DNA of 33,380 bases from NCBI GenBank assembly GCA_014859375.1, contig JACUUH010000026.1, positions 1 through 33,380 on the forward strand, given 5' to 3'. Position numbers and translations under genes: made by a program. This DNA comes from Gammaproteobacteria bacterium. GTDB taxonomy: Bacteria; Pseudomonadota; Gammaproteobacteria; Nitrosococcales; Methylophagaceae. Below are positions 25,877-30,842 of the stretch, piece after piece; position 1 is the first letter of the stretch; each line of letters begins with the position of its first letter. Below the pieces are notes generated by a model that worked only from the letters and a program-made list of their open reading frames with translations, was not told the DNA's origin and ran no database searches.

Positions 25877-26671
25877 CTATCGCCCTTCTAATAAGGCCAT
25901 CTCTTGTTCGGTGAACCCAGCCTGCTTGCGTGCTTGTGTATGAAATGGACCGCGTAGTTCACCCGCAAAGTATGTATCGAGTAACTCACGAAATGTGGCT
26001 AATGAATCAAGCTGACGGAGATCACATAAGTAATTGAACCAATGTGTACCGATCTTCACATGACCTATTTCTTCACGCAAAATCACTTCTAATATTTCAA
26101 CTGCTCGTAAATCGCCTGTCCCTCGCAGTTTATCCATCATTTTCGGGGTCACATCTAATCCCCTTGCCTCTAATACTCGCGGCACTAATGCCATTCTAAT
26201 CAAAGGATCATGGTGTGTTTTTTGTGCCATTTCCCACATACCGTTATGTGCAGGAAAGTCACCATAGTCATAACCTAACGATACTAAATGTTGTCGTAGT
26301 AGGACAAAATGTTCCGCTTCTTCTGAGGCAACTCGTGCCCAATCGGCATAGAACTGTTTCGGTAGATTGGGAAAACGTGCAACGGCATCCCATGCTAGAT
26401 TGATGGCATTAAACTCGATATGGGTGATGGCATGTAGTAATGTGGCAACACCGGTCTGTGCACTATTGCGACGACGCGGCAAATCACGTGGTGCCACCAG
26501 TTCAGGTTTGTCGGGTGCCCCCGGCAACTCAGGTACATCCAAAATACTATCTCGATCAAGCTCAACGGCATTATTTTTAAACTTGTGATACAAAATGTGG
26601 GTCTGTTCACGCTTTTGTGCAGGATCGGTCAGTAATAAAATGGTGAGTGCCTGTTGACGTAATTCATCCAT
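25877..26671 (-). CDS. DUF455 family ferritin-like protein
   Basis: A 264-residue protein of the DUF455 family, which has a ferritin-like four-helix fold; biochemical function not established. Candidate diiron ligands are E86 (HIEFNAI), E117/E118 with H121 (SEEAEHF), E169, and E201 with H204 (REEIGHVKIG), in the spacing expected for a carboxylate-bridged diiron site, as also seen in the tRNA hydroxylase MiaE group. Its ATG lies within the last codons of the upstream permease gene (eight-base overlap), so the two are coupled. It is convergent with the ratA-rnfH operon, nine bases apart, with no obvious terminator. Confidence 0.88.
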   Translation of the reverse strand: MDELRQQALTILLLTDPAQKREQTHILYHKFKNNAVELDRDSILDVPELPGAPDKPELVAPRDLPRRRNSAQTGVATLLHAITHIEFNAINLAWDAVARFPNLPKQFYADWARVASEEAEHFVLLRQHLVSLGYDYGDFPAHNGMWEMAQKTHHDPLIRMALVPRVLEARGLDVTPKMMDKLRGTGDLRAVEILEVILREEIGHVKIGTHWFNYLCDLRQLDSLATFRELLDTYFAGELRGPFHTQARKQAGFTEQEMALLEGR

Positions 26672-27644
26672 CCAAACGTACTCGCGGATCGACCAGTGTA
26701 TAGGATATATCTGTCAACACTAACCCCACTATATATAAGACCGAACCTAAAAAGACCATAGCTCTGACAATGGCAAAATCTTGAGCTTGAATTGCATCAA
26801 TGGTGTAACTACCAAGTCCCGGTATGCCAAAGAATGATTCAAGGATCAGGCTACCCATAAATAAGGTTGGTATGACGACAACGGCACCAGTCAATATTGG
26901 GATCATGGCATTTTTTAATACATGTCGAAATAATACTGTGACTTCTGATAAACCTTTGGCTCGTGCCGTGCGCACATAATCTTTTGATACTTCTTCAAGA
27001 AATAAGGTGCGATACCAACGTGAACCAGCACCAATGCCAGATACAATGCCTATCAGTACCGGTAGGATGACAAACTTAAAGGCACTGATACCCTGTGCAT
27101 AGCCTGAGATCGGCACCAATTGCATCATCTTTCCAACTAAAAACTGACCACCAATGATATAAAACAGACCCGAAATTGACATGATAATAACGCATAAAAT
27201 TACGCCGCCCAGATCGATATAGGTTGCTCGGAAAAACACCATTAATAAAGCAAAGGTAATATTGACCAGTAAGCCTATGACAAAAATAGGTATTGCTATT
27301 GCCAGACTTGGCCACATTCTGGTTTGAATGTCTTGCCCAATAGCTCGTCCATCATCTGCCGCGCCAAAATCAAATACAAATAATCGTAAAGATTTGTCAA
27401 AAAATATGGTGTTTGTTGCTTTATCAAGGCCAGATTCATCAGCCGCCCACAATAATGGTTTGTCATAGCCGCGTTCCTGTTTCCAGACATCTATCGCTTG
27501 TTGGTTGATGTGTTTGGCGCCGAGTTGCATTCTCGCCATATCATCAGGCGTATTAACCATAAAAAATAAAGCAAATGTCAGTGCATTTACCCCAATTAAA
27601 ATAGGAAATGAATACAGAATTCTTCTTATGATATAGGCAAACAT
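26664..27644 (-). CDS. orphan ABC transporter permease, OppB/DppB/YejB type
   Basis: Binding-protein-dependent transport permease of 326 residues. N-terminal helix YIIRRILYSFPILIGVNALTFALFF is followed by a long periplasmic segment (about 35-105), then about five further helices. The EAA cytoplasmic loop (TARAKGLSEVTVLFRHVLKNAMIPIL, about 226-251) contacts an ATPase. The ending VDPRVRLDG is the family C-terminus. Such permeases normally work with a second permease (OppC type), one or two ATPases and a periplasmic peptide-binding protein. None is present on either side. The reading frame is intact. The start has only a weak ribosome-binding site. It overlaps the DUF455 gene. Confidence 0.9.
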   Translation of the reverse strand: MFAYIIRRILYSFPILIGVNALTFALFFMVNTPDDMARMQLGAKHINQQAIDVWKQERGYDKPLLWAADESGLDKATNTIFFDKSLRLFVFDFGAADDGRAIGQDIQTRMWPSLAIAIPIFVIGLLVNITFALLMVFFRATYIDLGGVILCVIIMSISGLFYIIGGQFLVGKMMQLVPISGYAQGISAFKFVILPVLIGIVSGIGAGSRWYRTLFLEEVSKDYVRTARAKGLSEVTVLFRHVLKNAMIPILTGAVVVIPTLFMGSLILESFFGIPGLGSYTIDAIQAQDFAIVRAMVFLGSVLYIVGLVLTDISYTLVDPRVRLDG

Positions 27645-27749: not shown

Positions 27750-28097
27750 ATGACACTATCCGTATTCGATTTGGTTAAAACCGCCAAAGAAGTTATCAAT
27801 GAAGTATCTGTAGAAAAAGCCAAAAACATGCTAGAAGATAACACTATAGCCTTGGATGTGAGAGAACCTGCTGAGTTCGAATCTGGGCATATCAACAATG
27901 CTCGTCATCTGCCTCGAGGTGTACTTGAATTTAAAATTGCGGATCATCCCGATTTTCAGGATTTAGAACGCCCTATTCTGGTCTATTGTAAAACCGGTGG
28001 TCGTTCAGCATTAGCTGCAGTGGCCTTACAACAACTCGGTTATTTAAATGTGTACTCGCTTGCAGGCGGCTTTGATGCATGGCAACAATATGAATAA
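27750..28097 (+). CDS. single-domain rhodanese-like sulfurtransferase
   Basis: A 115-residue cytosolic protein with one rhodanese domain, able in principle to carry sulfane sulfur on the active-site cysteine. The CH2A-like ALDVREPAEFESGHINNARHLPRG (34-57) precedes the active-site loop C80-KTGGR, with C80 and R85, followed by GGFDAW. No signal peptide. AGGAG lies nine bases before the ATG. The next gene follows 55 bases later on the same strand with no terminator between, so the two are likely cotranscribed. Confidence 0.92.
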   Translation: MTLSVFDLVKTAKEVINEVSVEKAKNMLEDNTIALDVREPAEFESGHINNARHLPRGVLEFKIADHPDFQDLERPILVYCKTGGRSALAAVALQQLGYLNVYSLAGGFDAWQQYE

Positions 28098-28152
28098 AAA
28101 CACTGCTCAAATGCAAGTTCAACACTGATACTGTAAATCTTAGGAATACATC

Positions 28153-28902
28153 ATGATCATAATTAAATACATACTCTTTCTTGTCGCCATAGTGTTCACA
28201 AGTGTCGCTTTTGCTGAACCAACCCATGTTATGGTGCGAGCCAAAGCCGTTGATGCCAAATTTATTGGTACCAGTGTGGGTGGCGTTAAGGTTGTTGTTG
28301 AAGATGCAGAAACGGGTGAAATTCTTGATACCGGTTGGATAAATGGTGGCACTGGTAGTACCTCAACCTTAATTTCACAGCCGATTACTCGGGGTCAGAC
28401 AGTAAGCGATAAAGACACGGCAGGATTTGTAGCAACACTTGATATTTCAAGCCCTCGCTTAGTTCGCTTTACGTTAATTGGGCCTTATGGCTTTCGTCAG
28501 TCATTGCAAGAAGCATCGTTAACCAGTTGGGTAATACCGGGTAAAGATATTCTGGGTGATGGCATTATTATTTCGATGTCAGGCTTTATTGTTGATGCGT
28601 GGACACGTGTGCTTGAAGGCGGAAAAGTCGATATTTATACACAAACATCATTATTATGTGGTTGCCCTATTTACCCTGATGGCCCTTGGGATCCGGCAAA
28701 TTACCAAGCAAAAGCGATCGTAATGCACAATCAAAATAAGGTCGATGAAGTTGATTTAACTTATACCGGGCCAACAGGTCTATTTTCTGGCAAGACAACA
28801 CTCACTGAATCAGGTCATTATAAAGCGATCGTATATTTAATCGATACCAAAACCGGTAACGTAGGTGTTGACCGCGCTATGTTTGAGATCGATCTCAACT
28901 AA
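28153..28902 (+). CDS. exported protein of unknown family with a CGC motif, 249 aa
   Basis: I do not recognise the family. A signal peptide (1-21, ending SVAFA) directs it out of the cytosol. The mature part is rich in beta-strand-forming residues with repeated short Gly/Thr turns, suggesting a beta-sandwich. Segments 20-110 and 185-249 resemble immunoglobulin-like or carboxypeptidase-regulatory-like modules, but this is impression only. The only cysteines are C169 and C171 (LLCGCPIYPDGPWDP), a possible metal- or modification site. AGGA precedes the ATG at a good distance. Its stop codon TAA is directly abutted by a transposable element, which separates it from a hairpin and from the downstream MNIO gene. 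It may be a partner or substrate of that enzyme (inference). Confidence 0.8.
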   Translation: MIIIKYILFLVAIVFTSVAFAEPTHVMVRAKAVDAKFIGTSVGGVKVVVEDAETGEILDTGWINGGTGSTSTLISQPITRGQTVSDKDTAGFVATLDISSPRLVRFTLIGPYGFRQSLQEASLTSWVIPGKDILGDGIIISMSGFIVDAWTRVLEGGKVDIYTQTSLLCGCPIYPDGPWDPANYQAKAIVMHNQNKVDEVDLTYTGPTGLFSGKTTLTESGHYKAIVYLIDTKTGNVGVDRAMFEIDLN

Positions 28903-28904
28903 AT

Positions 28905-29135
28905 AACCTCAGTTCTGGATAAGCACAGCCATCCAGCACCTTTGTTTTAGCGGCTATCGGCGTTAGCTTTTCTTGCAATAGCTGGGCTATTGCTACATAA
29001 ATCTGCCTTGATATCCACTAAAACAAAGGCACTGCTTATGTCATTAAAACTGGTTTTAGTGGTTTTACCAGCTATTTGTTGGTAAGTCATTGTGCGTTAT
29101 AGGGTCGCTGACTATTCTTATCCAGAACTGAGGTT
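28905..29135. mobile_element. 231-bp MITE-like element with 19-bp terminal inverted repeats
   Basis: The left end AACCTCAGTTCTGGATAAG (28905-28923) is repeated exactly, inverted, at the right end (29117-29135). Both ends are flanked by AAAT (28901-28904 and 29136-29139), a 4-bp target duplication. Internally there are further dyads: cctttgttttag with ctaaaacaaagg, and gcaatagc-tgg-gctattgc. No full transposase fits, so it is a non-autonomous derivative. The left target copy includes the last two bases of the upstream gene's TAA stop, so the insertion kept that stop. This accounts for most of the 340-base gap before the MNIO gene. Confidence 0.85.
28947..29090 (-). CDS. 47-aa frame inside the MITE-like element
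   Basis: An ATG at 29090 opens 47 codons to TAA (28947-28949), beginning MTYQQIAGKTTKTSFNDISS and including DIKADLCSNSPAIARK. It spans most of the element's interior. It may be the remains of a transposase start from the parent IS or mere chance; I cannot match it to a family and there is no clear ribosome-binding site. Low confidence that it is expressed. Confidence 0.2.
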   Translation of the reverse strand: MTYQQIAGKTTKTSFNDISSAFVLVDIKADLCSNSPAIARKANADSR

Positions 29136-29150
29136 AAATAGTGATTTCCG

Positions 29151-29173
29151 ATACCCTGATAGTTACAGGGTAT
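29151..29173 (+). terminator. hairpin upstream of the MNIO gene
   Basis: Stem ataccctg (29151-29158) with cagggtat (29166-29173), seven-base loop. The following T-run is weak (ttcaagctattttt). Without the transposable element it would lie about 14 bases after the stop codon of the exported protein gene, the usual place for its terminator (inference). Confidence 0.5.
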
Positions 29174-29242
29174 TTCAAGCTATTTTTGTAACATTAACGT
29201 TTATCAAACGTCTTAGCTTTATCGATGATTAGGAGAAGTAAG

Positions 29243-30094
29243 ATGAATACAACTTCATGCCCAATTTCTGGTGCCGGACTAGGGTTACGAAGAAGTTTTA
29301 TGGATGAACTGGATACATTTGATCATCATCAACCAGCTGATTTTTTAGAAGTTGCTCCAGAAAATTGGATGGGCATGGGTGGTGTTTTGGGTAAACGCTT
29401 CAGTCATTTTGCTGAACGATATCCTATGCTGTGTCACGGCTTATCGCTTTCAATTGGCAGCCCCGCCCCCTTGGATGAAGCCTTTATTAAGACGCTTAAA
29501 ACGTTCTTTGATAAACATCATATCGTTTGTTATAGCGAACACCTCAGTTATTGCAGTGATGATGGTCATTTGTATGATTTAATGCCAATCCCATTTACCG
29601 AAGAAGCAGTGCATCATGTTGCGGCTCGTATCAAACGTGTGCAAGATATTTTAGAGCGACGATTAATCATCGAAAATGTGTCGTATTACGCTGCGCCTGG
29701 TCAGGAAATAAAAGAAGTCGAATTTGTTAAAGCAGTACTGGAAGAAGCTGATTGTGACTTGTTACTTGATGTCAATAATGTTTATGTCAACAGCGTTAAT
29801 CATCGCTATGACCCGGTCGAATTTATTAAAGCCATGCCGCAACATCGTATTGCCTATCTTCACATAGCTGGGCATTACAATGAAGCACAAGACTTAATTG
29901 TTGATACTCATGGTGCTGATATTGTTGATCCGGTATGGCAATTATTAGAAACTACCTATCAACATCATGGTGTTATTCCGACGTTATTAGAACGCGATTT
30001 TAATATTCCTGCACTTGATCTATTAATCAGTGAAGTTGAACAAATTCGCCACTATCAATCTGCTTATAAGGCTGCTAACCGTGTCAGCGCTTAA
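29243..30094 (+). CDS. bufB: MNIO family (DUF692) multinuclear iron enzyme, BufB-like
   Basis: TIM-barrel multinuclear non-heme iron oxidase. Characterised relatives modify cysteine or other residues of ribosomally made peptides (MbnB, TglH, bufferin BufB). From the ATG at 29243 it has 283 residues, with aggagaa at 29231-29237 deciding the start over an in-frame ATG at 29225. Candidate iron ligands follow the family order: H65 (LCHGLSLSIG), H100 (YSEHLSY), E144 (IIENVSYY), D176 (LLLDVNNVYVN), H207 and H211 (LHIAGH), D221 and H223 (DTHG), E250 (LLERD). The 3' end overlaps bufC by 14 bases. No DUF2282-type precursor gene is found next to it. The name BufB rests on this DUF2063 pairing. Confidence 0.9.
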   Translation: MNTTSCPISGAGLGLRRSFMDELDTFDHHQPADFLEVAPENWMGMGGVLGKRFSHFAERYPMLCHGLSLSIGSPAPLDEAFIKTLKTFFDKHHIVCYSEHLSYCSDDGHLYDLMPIPFTEEAVHHVAARIKRVQDILERRLIIENVSYYAAPGQEIKEVEFVKAVLEEADCDLLLDVNNVYVNSVNHRYDPVEFIKAMPQHRIAYLHIAGHYNEAQDLIVDTHGADIVDPVWQLLETTYQHHGVIPTLLERDFNIPALDLLISEVEQIRHYQSAYKAANRVSA

Positions 30095-30842
30095 CTCAAA
30101 ATCAGCTAGTTTTATCGAGACCCAATACCAATTTGCCGCGCATTTACGTGATCCTGCCAATCAAGCTATCCCAGGCGATCTCGAACCGCGACGTATGGCC
30201 ATTTATCAGGAGCTGTTTTATAACAATATAGAAGGTTTCATTGCTAACGGATTTCCAGTCATTCGCACTATTACTTCTGACGAAAATTGGCATGCCATGA
30301 TCCGTGATTTCATGATCAAACATCGCTGTAAAACGCCACTCTTCCATGAGGTTTCTCGTGAATTCCTAATGTATCTTGAGCATGAACGTGATACAGCCAA
30401 TGATCCCCCTTTTCTTGGTGAATTAGCCCATTATGAATGGGTAGAATTAGCCTTAAGTGTATTGGATAGTGATGCCACACCTTTTGAGTTAACTGGTGAT
30501 ATTGACTGTATGCAGCAACACCTCAAAACCTCACCATTAGCCTGGCCTTTAGCCTATCATTATGATGTGCAAAATATTGGATCAAAACATCAACCAACCG
30601 TCGCTAGCGATACGATGGTATTTTTACTGGTCTATCGTAATCAACAAGATAAAATCACCTTTATTGAGTTAAACCCGGTCAGTGCTCGTCTTATTGATTT
30701 ACTTAATGACAATCATACTGGACAACAAGCCGCTGCAATAATCGCTCAGCAGTTAAATCATCCTAATCCACAACTCGTTACTGATAGTGCCAAAGCCTTA
30801 CTTGAAGATTGGATTAATCGAGGCATAATGATCAAGCAATAA
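30081..30842 (+). CDS. bufC: DUF2063 family MNIO partner, BufC-like
   Basis: Partner protein that in bufferin-type systems helps the MNIO enzyme recognise its precursor. From GTG at 30081 it has 253 residues, beginning MSALNSKSASFIETQYQFAA. The N-terminal DUF2063 domain (about 10-105) has the family pattern RRMAIYQELFYNNIEGFIANGFPVIR. The C-terminal half (about 150-250), with FLLVYRNQQDKITFIELNP, looks like the winged-helix-like region seen in these partners. AAGG lies about nine bases before the GTG. An upstream in-frame ATG at 30030 would extend 17 residues further into bufB and adds nothing conserved. It ends at a strong shared terminator. Confidence 0.88.
   Translation: MSALNSKSASFIETQYQFAAHLRDPANQAIPGDLEPRRMAIYQELFYNNIEGFIANGFPVIRTITSDENWHAMIRDFMIKHRCKTPLFHEVSREFLMYLEHERDTANDPPFLGELAHYEWVELALSVLDSDATPFELTGDIDCMQQHLKTSPLAWPLAYHYDVQNIGSKHQPTVASDTMVFLLVYRNQQDKITFIELNPVSARLIDLLNDNHTGQQAAAIIAQQLNHPNPQLVTDSAKALLEDWINRGIMIKQ

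Follow-up and report, generated by a model that had tools for sequence, protein, structure and literature searches.

We analyzed the locus of an MNIO-family enzyme, HvfB, and its partner protein, HvfC, in a genome of the family Methylophagaceae (hereafter, the family). The stretch of DNA studied, hereafter the window, is the whole of contig C80 (33,380 bases), one of the 106 contigs in an assembly that totals 2.35 Mb and is 96.7% complete. From left to right, the locus contains an ABC transporter permease gene on the minus strand, a rhodanese gene, a gene for an exported 249-aa protein and, beyond a 229-nt mobile element, hvfB and hvfC, all on the plus strand, followed by two minus-strand genes that we take to be eda and edd (Table 1). 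All of the features that a first-pass annotation had placed upstream of the MNIO gene, namely the rhodanese, the exported protein with its CGC motif and the small mobile element, are present.

Table 1. Features of the hvfBC locus, in window coordinates
Feature	Position	Strand	Evidence
Single-domain rhodanese, 115 aa, motif CKTGGRS	27750–28097	+	PF00581, 82.4 bits
Exported 249-aa protein of an unnamed family, C169-G-C171, predicted model with two beta-sandwich (Ig-like) domains	28153–28902	+	CGC in 80/80 relatives (best 80 of 241); mean predicted local distance difference test (pLDDT) score 94.5
Left target-site repeat TAAATA, beginning at the 249-aa gene's stop codon	28900–28905	.	Single copy in sister genome G021
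Element like a miniature inverted-repeat transposable element (MITE), 229 nt, terminal inverted repeats	28906–29134	.	
Right target-site repeat TAAATA	29135–29140	.	
hvfB, MNIO-family enzyme, 283 aa, Lys-Cys (EGKCG) type as judged from R16-R17 and D252-F253	29243–30094	+	NF003818; 3bww; signature residues
hvfC, DUF2063 partner protein for recognition of ribosomally synthesized and post-translationally modified peptides, 253 aa, GTG start within the end of hvfB	30081–30842	+	NF050145; 3dee

Curated family models place both enzyme genes in the hvf system. The MNIO passes the HvfB model NF003818 (449.7 bits, curated cut-off 360) and fails the bufferin maturase (BufB) model NF050167 (277.2 bits, cut-off 310), and its partner passes the HvfC model NF050145 (300.8 bits, cut-off 142). 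The solved chain closest to HvfB is 3bww (E 4.2e-75), and HvfC matches 3dee (E 5.2e-08). Within the open reading frame (ORF) of the MNIO, at 29225–30094, the ATG at 29243 is the better start, preceded by aggagaag; since the first 30 residues of the 30030 ORF lie outside the HvfC match, hvfC likely starts at the GTG at 30081, and it thereby overlaps the hvfB stop codon (30092–30094). The first-pass annotation had called the two genes coupled and bufB- and bufC-like: the coupling stands in the form of this overlap, but the identity does not, as the NCBIfam cut-offs make the pair HvfB and HvfC. The DUF2282 precursor that defines the bufferin Buf1 system is also lacking, with no DUF2282 match at E ≤ 10 across the whole genome, and the reported absence of a DUF2282-type precursor from the flanking DNA holds. 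Given the sub-threshold NF050167 score and the lack of a DUF2282 protein, we dropped the BufB/bufferin label.

Only one MNIO was seen in this genome, and its residues suggest which class of precursor it may accept. According to PMC13097082, Lys-Cys-type MNIOs retain two residues close to the substrate, one Arg and one Phe, that enzymes for other precursor classes lose. The window HvfB has the pattern of Lys-Cys-type captophorin enzymes, with Arg-Arg near the N-terminus (residues 16–17) and Phe directly after the catalytic Asp (Asp-Phe, 252–253). The same four residues occur in 29/29 HvfB-class relatives checked, which came from 74 genomes above the NF003818 cut-off, versus 0/15 MNIOs below the cut-off, a hand-picked selection with 11 members from the same family. 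By these signature residues, the enzyme would fit an EGKCG-type precursor. Seven family genomes (L248–L254) have a second MNIO, which probably serves a different precursor class, since Asp-Asp replaces Asp-Phe in its sequence.

A precursor with such repeats is encoded on another contig. Inspection of both strands of the window for ORFs of 25–149 aa, restricted to those with at least four Cys, revealed no EGKCG-like repeats, in agreement with the earlier statement that no precursor lies beside the MNIO pair. A degenerate EGKCG pattern matched the genome three times, always within one ORF on contig C63, and the backwards control pattern matched nowhere. This 112-aa ORF (G000 contig C63:39908–40246) begins with what resembles a signal peptide and then carries three EGKCG and three EAKCG repeats, and it passes NF050137, the KCGExKCG domain model of the HvfA family, with 53.3 bits over two stretches against a cut-off of 19.5. 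The presence of this ORF rules out a missing precursor and bears out the earlier suggestion that the true precursor could be encoded elsewhere, although as an HvfA-type EGKCG protein, not a DUF2282 bufferin.

The hvfA gene ends 106 bases from the end of C63. In the sister genome G021 the next gene after hvfA is a DoxX gene, and in the window's genome this DoxX gene begins at base 32 of contig C53; because the two genes meet contig ends in this way, an assembly gap probably cuts the hvfA locus between C63 and C53. On C53, the DoxX-family (HvfX-like) gene is followed by genes for a molybdopterin oxidoreductase and a ferric-reductase-like membrane protein (Pfam names Oxidored_molyb and Ferric_reduct), which are presumably MsrPQ-like. 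Among 18 hvfA loci fetched from the family, the oxidoreductase and ferric-reductase genes follow hvfA in 17 and DoxX in 16, and an extracytoplasmic function (ECF) sigma gene precedes hvfA and stands opposite to it in 16. Remnants of this sigma gene and of an adjoining small gene, the latter an anti-sigma gene by position only, occupy L134:19108–19405 in the window's genome; both genes look intact in G021 (L120:2620–3491).

The split of the hvf pathway is a lineage-wide property. We compared 143 genomes, 57 from the family (the window's own included) and 86 from outside it, counting as hvfB the matches above the NF003818 cut-off and seeking hvfA at E ≤ 0.1. Secondary pieces were omitted from the distance counts, as were non-family genomes G097, G112, G122 and G129 (hvfA at E 0.02 to 0.09), none of which has hvfB above the cut-off. 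The genome counts are uncorrected for shared descent, and those filtered for completeness (≥90%) are not filtered for contamination. Within the family, hvfB was found in 51 genomes, hvfA in 48 and both in 46, and the distance between hvfA and hvfB is 10 kb or less in 0/46 of these, versus 18/20 outside the family. Of the 46 family genomes, 38 have the two genes on different contigs, and in the other 8 they are 49 kb to 2.5 Mb apart. The 37 family genomes that are at least 90% complete comprise 36 with both genes and one with neither. All five with hvfB and no hvfA found (G002, G009, G019, G022 and G026) and both with hvfA and no hvfB found (G048 and G056) are less than 90% complete. The two genes are also apart, by 62 kb, in the same-order genome G060. 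Bufferin precursor genes away from MNIO genes are already reported in passages of an MNIO survey (PMC12452194); the new and modest point here is the separation of precursor and enzymes throughout one family. A precursor search limited to the neighborhood would call HvfBC an orphan pair through the whole family, and the split allows a test of separate control of enzymes and precursor. In the open-licence literature, the MNIO papers among the matches listed never mention Methylophaga; two further papers name it once each beside DUF692 (PMC8692599 and PMC11015633).

We consider it about 90% probable that the locus is the ordinary HvfBC half of a split hvf (oxazolin/captophorin) pathway, with its HvfA precursor at a second locus. 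By analogy with studied relatives, HvfA would be supplied from the locus on C63, which probably continues on C53 with the DoxX, molybdopterin oxidoreductase and ferric-reductase-like genes; HvfB together with HvfC would convert the Cys of its EGKCG/EAKCG repeats to 5-thiooxazoles in the cytoplasm, the Sec signal would send the modified HvfA to the periplasm, and the peptide would bind copper there. The closest known arrangement, as far as passages of PMC13419390 describe it, is the hvf operon of nontypeable Haemophilus influenzae, which makes oxazolin with HvfA, HvfB, HvfC and a DoxX-like HvfX: the HvfB and HvfC families are shared, as are a signal-peptide HvfA with six repeat Cys and a DoxX-family gene by hvfA. 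Unlike in that operon, hvfBC and hvfA here stand at unlinked loci, and the hvfA locus of relatives adds redox genes and an ECF sigma gene, the latter a remnant in this genome. The EGKCG repeats, together with Arg-Arg and Asp-Phe in the MNIO, recall captophorins such as fontiphorin, as described in PMC13097082, although here the precursor is not beside the enzymes. Oxidored_molybd and ferric reductase genes accompany small numbers of EGKCG clusters among the Buf_EGKCG/oxazolin clusters of PMC12452194, whose relevant passages do not describe a fixed, family-wide separation.

Several points weigh against this interpretation. The C63 ORF scores 50.6 bits on the stricter HvfA equivalog model NF050188, below its cut-off of 95, and for that reason we call it HvfA-type. 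The C63 hvfA and the C53 DoxX gene are joined only via synteny with G021 across the assembly gap, and a further gene could lie between them. The residue match to FonB runs through an alignment of relatives that does not contain FonB itself, and one later sentence in PMC13097082 gives the second Arg to Cys-Lys enzymes, in contradiction to an earlier part of the text; we took it for a slip. Lastly, only remnants of the ECF sigma gene by hvfA (36 aa with a stop) and of its small neighbor (65 of 84 aa) are left in the window's genome, so hvfA may be regulated differently there.

The remaining alternatives center mostly on the exported protein upstream of hvfB. Its sole cysteines are C169 and C171, and its signal peptide was read from the N-terminus by eye, without a predictor. 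Neither Pfam nor NCBIfam yielded a match to the window protein at E ≤ 1. When 47 members were scanned against Pfam, the matches were scattered and none was stronger than E 0.0036; each occurred in at most three members, and several are Ig-like. We fetched the best 80 of 241 related stretches from a genome scan, 40 of them from outside the family; CGC is conserved in all 80, and Pro follows the second Cys (CGCP) in 74, these counts covering all 80 loci and alignment A2 holding the window protein plus 46 of them. As labelled, members occur in Gammaproteobacteria and beyond, and the non-family relatives belong to Bacteroidota, Nitrospinaceae, Hyphomicrobium, Thermodesulfatator, Methylocaldum and others. 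In the predicted structure, the CGC loop is in the second of the two domains. A PDB sequence search with the family profile A1 gave five weak matches (best E 0.034, to ribosomal protein eL33), and the chains listed by Foldseek are Ig- and FnIII-like, their TM-scores ranging from about 0.2 to 0.36. The first VIA-align rank is an S-layer chain (Z 10.8, root-mean-square deviation 11.1, 183 aligned residues); for most hits near Z 10, the alignment spans about 90 residues, all in the second domain. Both structure comparisons return generic Ig-like folds and give no indication of function. The existence of this widespread, unnamed family is a second modest new point, and it merits a family model of its own.

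How closely this protein accompanies MNIO genes depends on the lineage. Inside the family, the two occur together in 43/46, the CGC gene is within 3 kb of hvfB in 40/43 genomes with both, and it adjoins hvfB in 35/40 named family loci. Outside the family this association does not hold: among 39 of 40 non-family carriers that could be searched, of completeness not given, 34 have no MNIO (PF05114) match, and tblastn with the window HvfB and HvfC matched neither at any of the 40 non-family CGC loci (3.8 to 10.8 kb). The 86 non-family genomes include 7 with the CGC protein, 23 with hvfB and one with both, there 1.93 Mb apart. The near-complete same-order genomes G059, G061 and G062 have the protein, with its CGC, and no NF003818 match. 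Conversely, 5/36 family genomes that are at least 90% complete and have both hvfA and hvfB lack the protein; all five have hvfC, and in each the rhodanese gene immediately precedes hvfB. In G001, G005 and G006 the CGC gene stays by the ABC permease and rhodanese genes, and hvfBC is elsewhere. Since CGC occurs in genomes where no MNIO was found and some hvf genomes lack the protein, the function of the invariant motif is most likely unconnected with HvfBC; it may bind metal or form a disulfide.

One alternative is that the CGC protein, and perhaps the rhodanese too, assists the copper-peptide system of this lineage in the periplasm, where it might bind metal as a partner of mature HvfA. The position of the CGC gene by hvfB in the family speaks for such a role, and some non-family copies have as neighbors a P-type ATPase gene that includes a heavy-metal-binding domain (L190, L195) or cytochrome c genes (L214, L222, L224). 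However, metal or redox neighbors of this kind occur at just 5/40 loci, and the lack of HvfB and HvfC at the non-family loci, the occurrence of both genes in a single non-family genome, far apart, and the three genomes in which hvfBC is not by the CGC gene all argue against it, and we regard it as rather unlikely. The rhodanese, found by tblastn in 29/40 named family loci (a contig edge cuts some of them short), is a neighbor of unproven relevance; it and the CGC protein are neighbors, not demonstrated parts of the pathway. A more elaborate proposal starts from the unnamed family to which the CGC protein belongs, whose invariant CGC is found in several phyla. In this lineage, a member would have been recruited to a place beside hvfB to act in the periplasm as a copper or thiol partner of the exported thiooxazole peptide, and the precursor would have come to lie in a separate ECF-sigma-linked redox operon; we hold this to be doubtful.

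Less likely again is that HvfBC also modifies other, unrecognized precursors encoded elsewhere. Some relatives have two hvfA-like places (e.g. G001, G006, G007), and according to passages of PMC12452194 one enzyme pair may serve several precursors, but in the window's genome a single ORF has the EGKCG pattern and none has DUF2282, the two kinds of precursor that the genome-wide searches covered. That the exported protein is itself an unusually large HvfBC substrate, as the first-pass annotation had offered as one option, is highly improbable despite its apparent export, its two lone cysteines, its nearness to hvfB and a Gly after C169 as in the EGKCG repeats, because the motif is kept in genomes where no MNIO was found, the protein is missing from family genomes with hvfA, hvfB and hvfC, the model is confidently folded around the motif, and the usual CGCP would disagree with FonBC, which on peptides in vitro is intolerant to Pro and accepts only Gly or Ala after Cys (passages of PMC13097082); a large protein substrate for an MNIO is therefore dropped as a lead.

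Returning to the split hvf pathway, its origin may involve the transporter genes nearby. The permease gene by hvfBC (26664–27644) and a second permease and ATPase by hvfA (L134:15446–18867) resemble halves of one peptide ABC transporter. Most family loci fetched have one permease gene by hvfBC, with the other permease and the ATPase by hvfA. A single recombination in a peptide ABC transporter operon was considered as the origin of the split and is not proven. In four same-order genomes (L228–L231), both permeases and the ATPase are together and adjoin the CGC gene.

The element between the CGC gene and hvfB has inverted ends and is flanked by TAAATA direct repeats on both sides, and the insertion site is uninterrupted in G021, which confirms the earlier proposal that the two genes were closer before the element inserted. 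At least 14 places in the genome, the window copy included, cover at least 200 of 238 query bases (40 of 64 candidates scored). Full-length copies are about 230 nt and shorter forms about 128 nt. Because several copies lie at contig ends, this MITE family may have broken the assembly.

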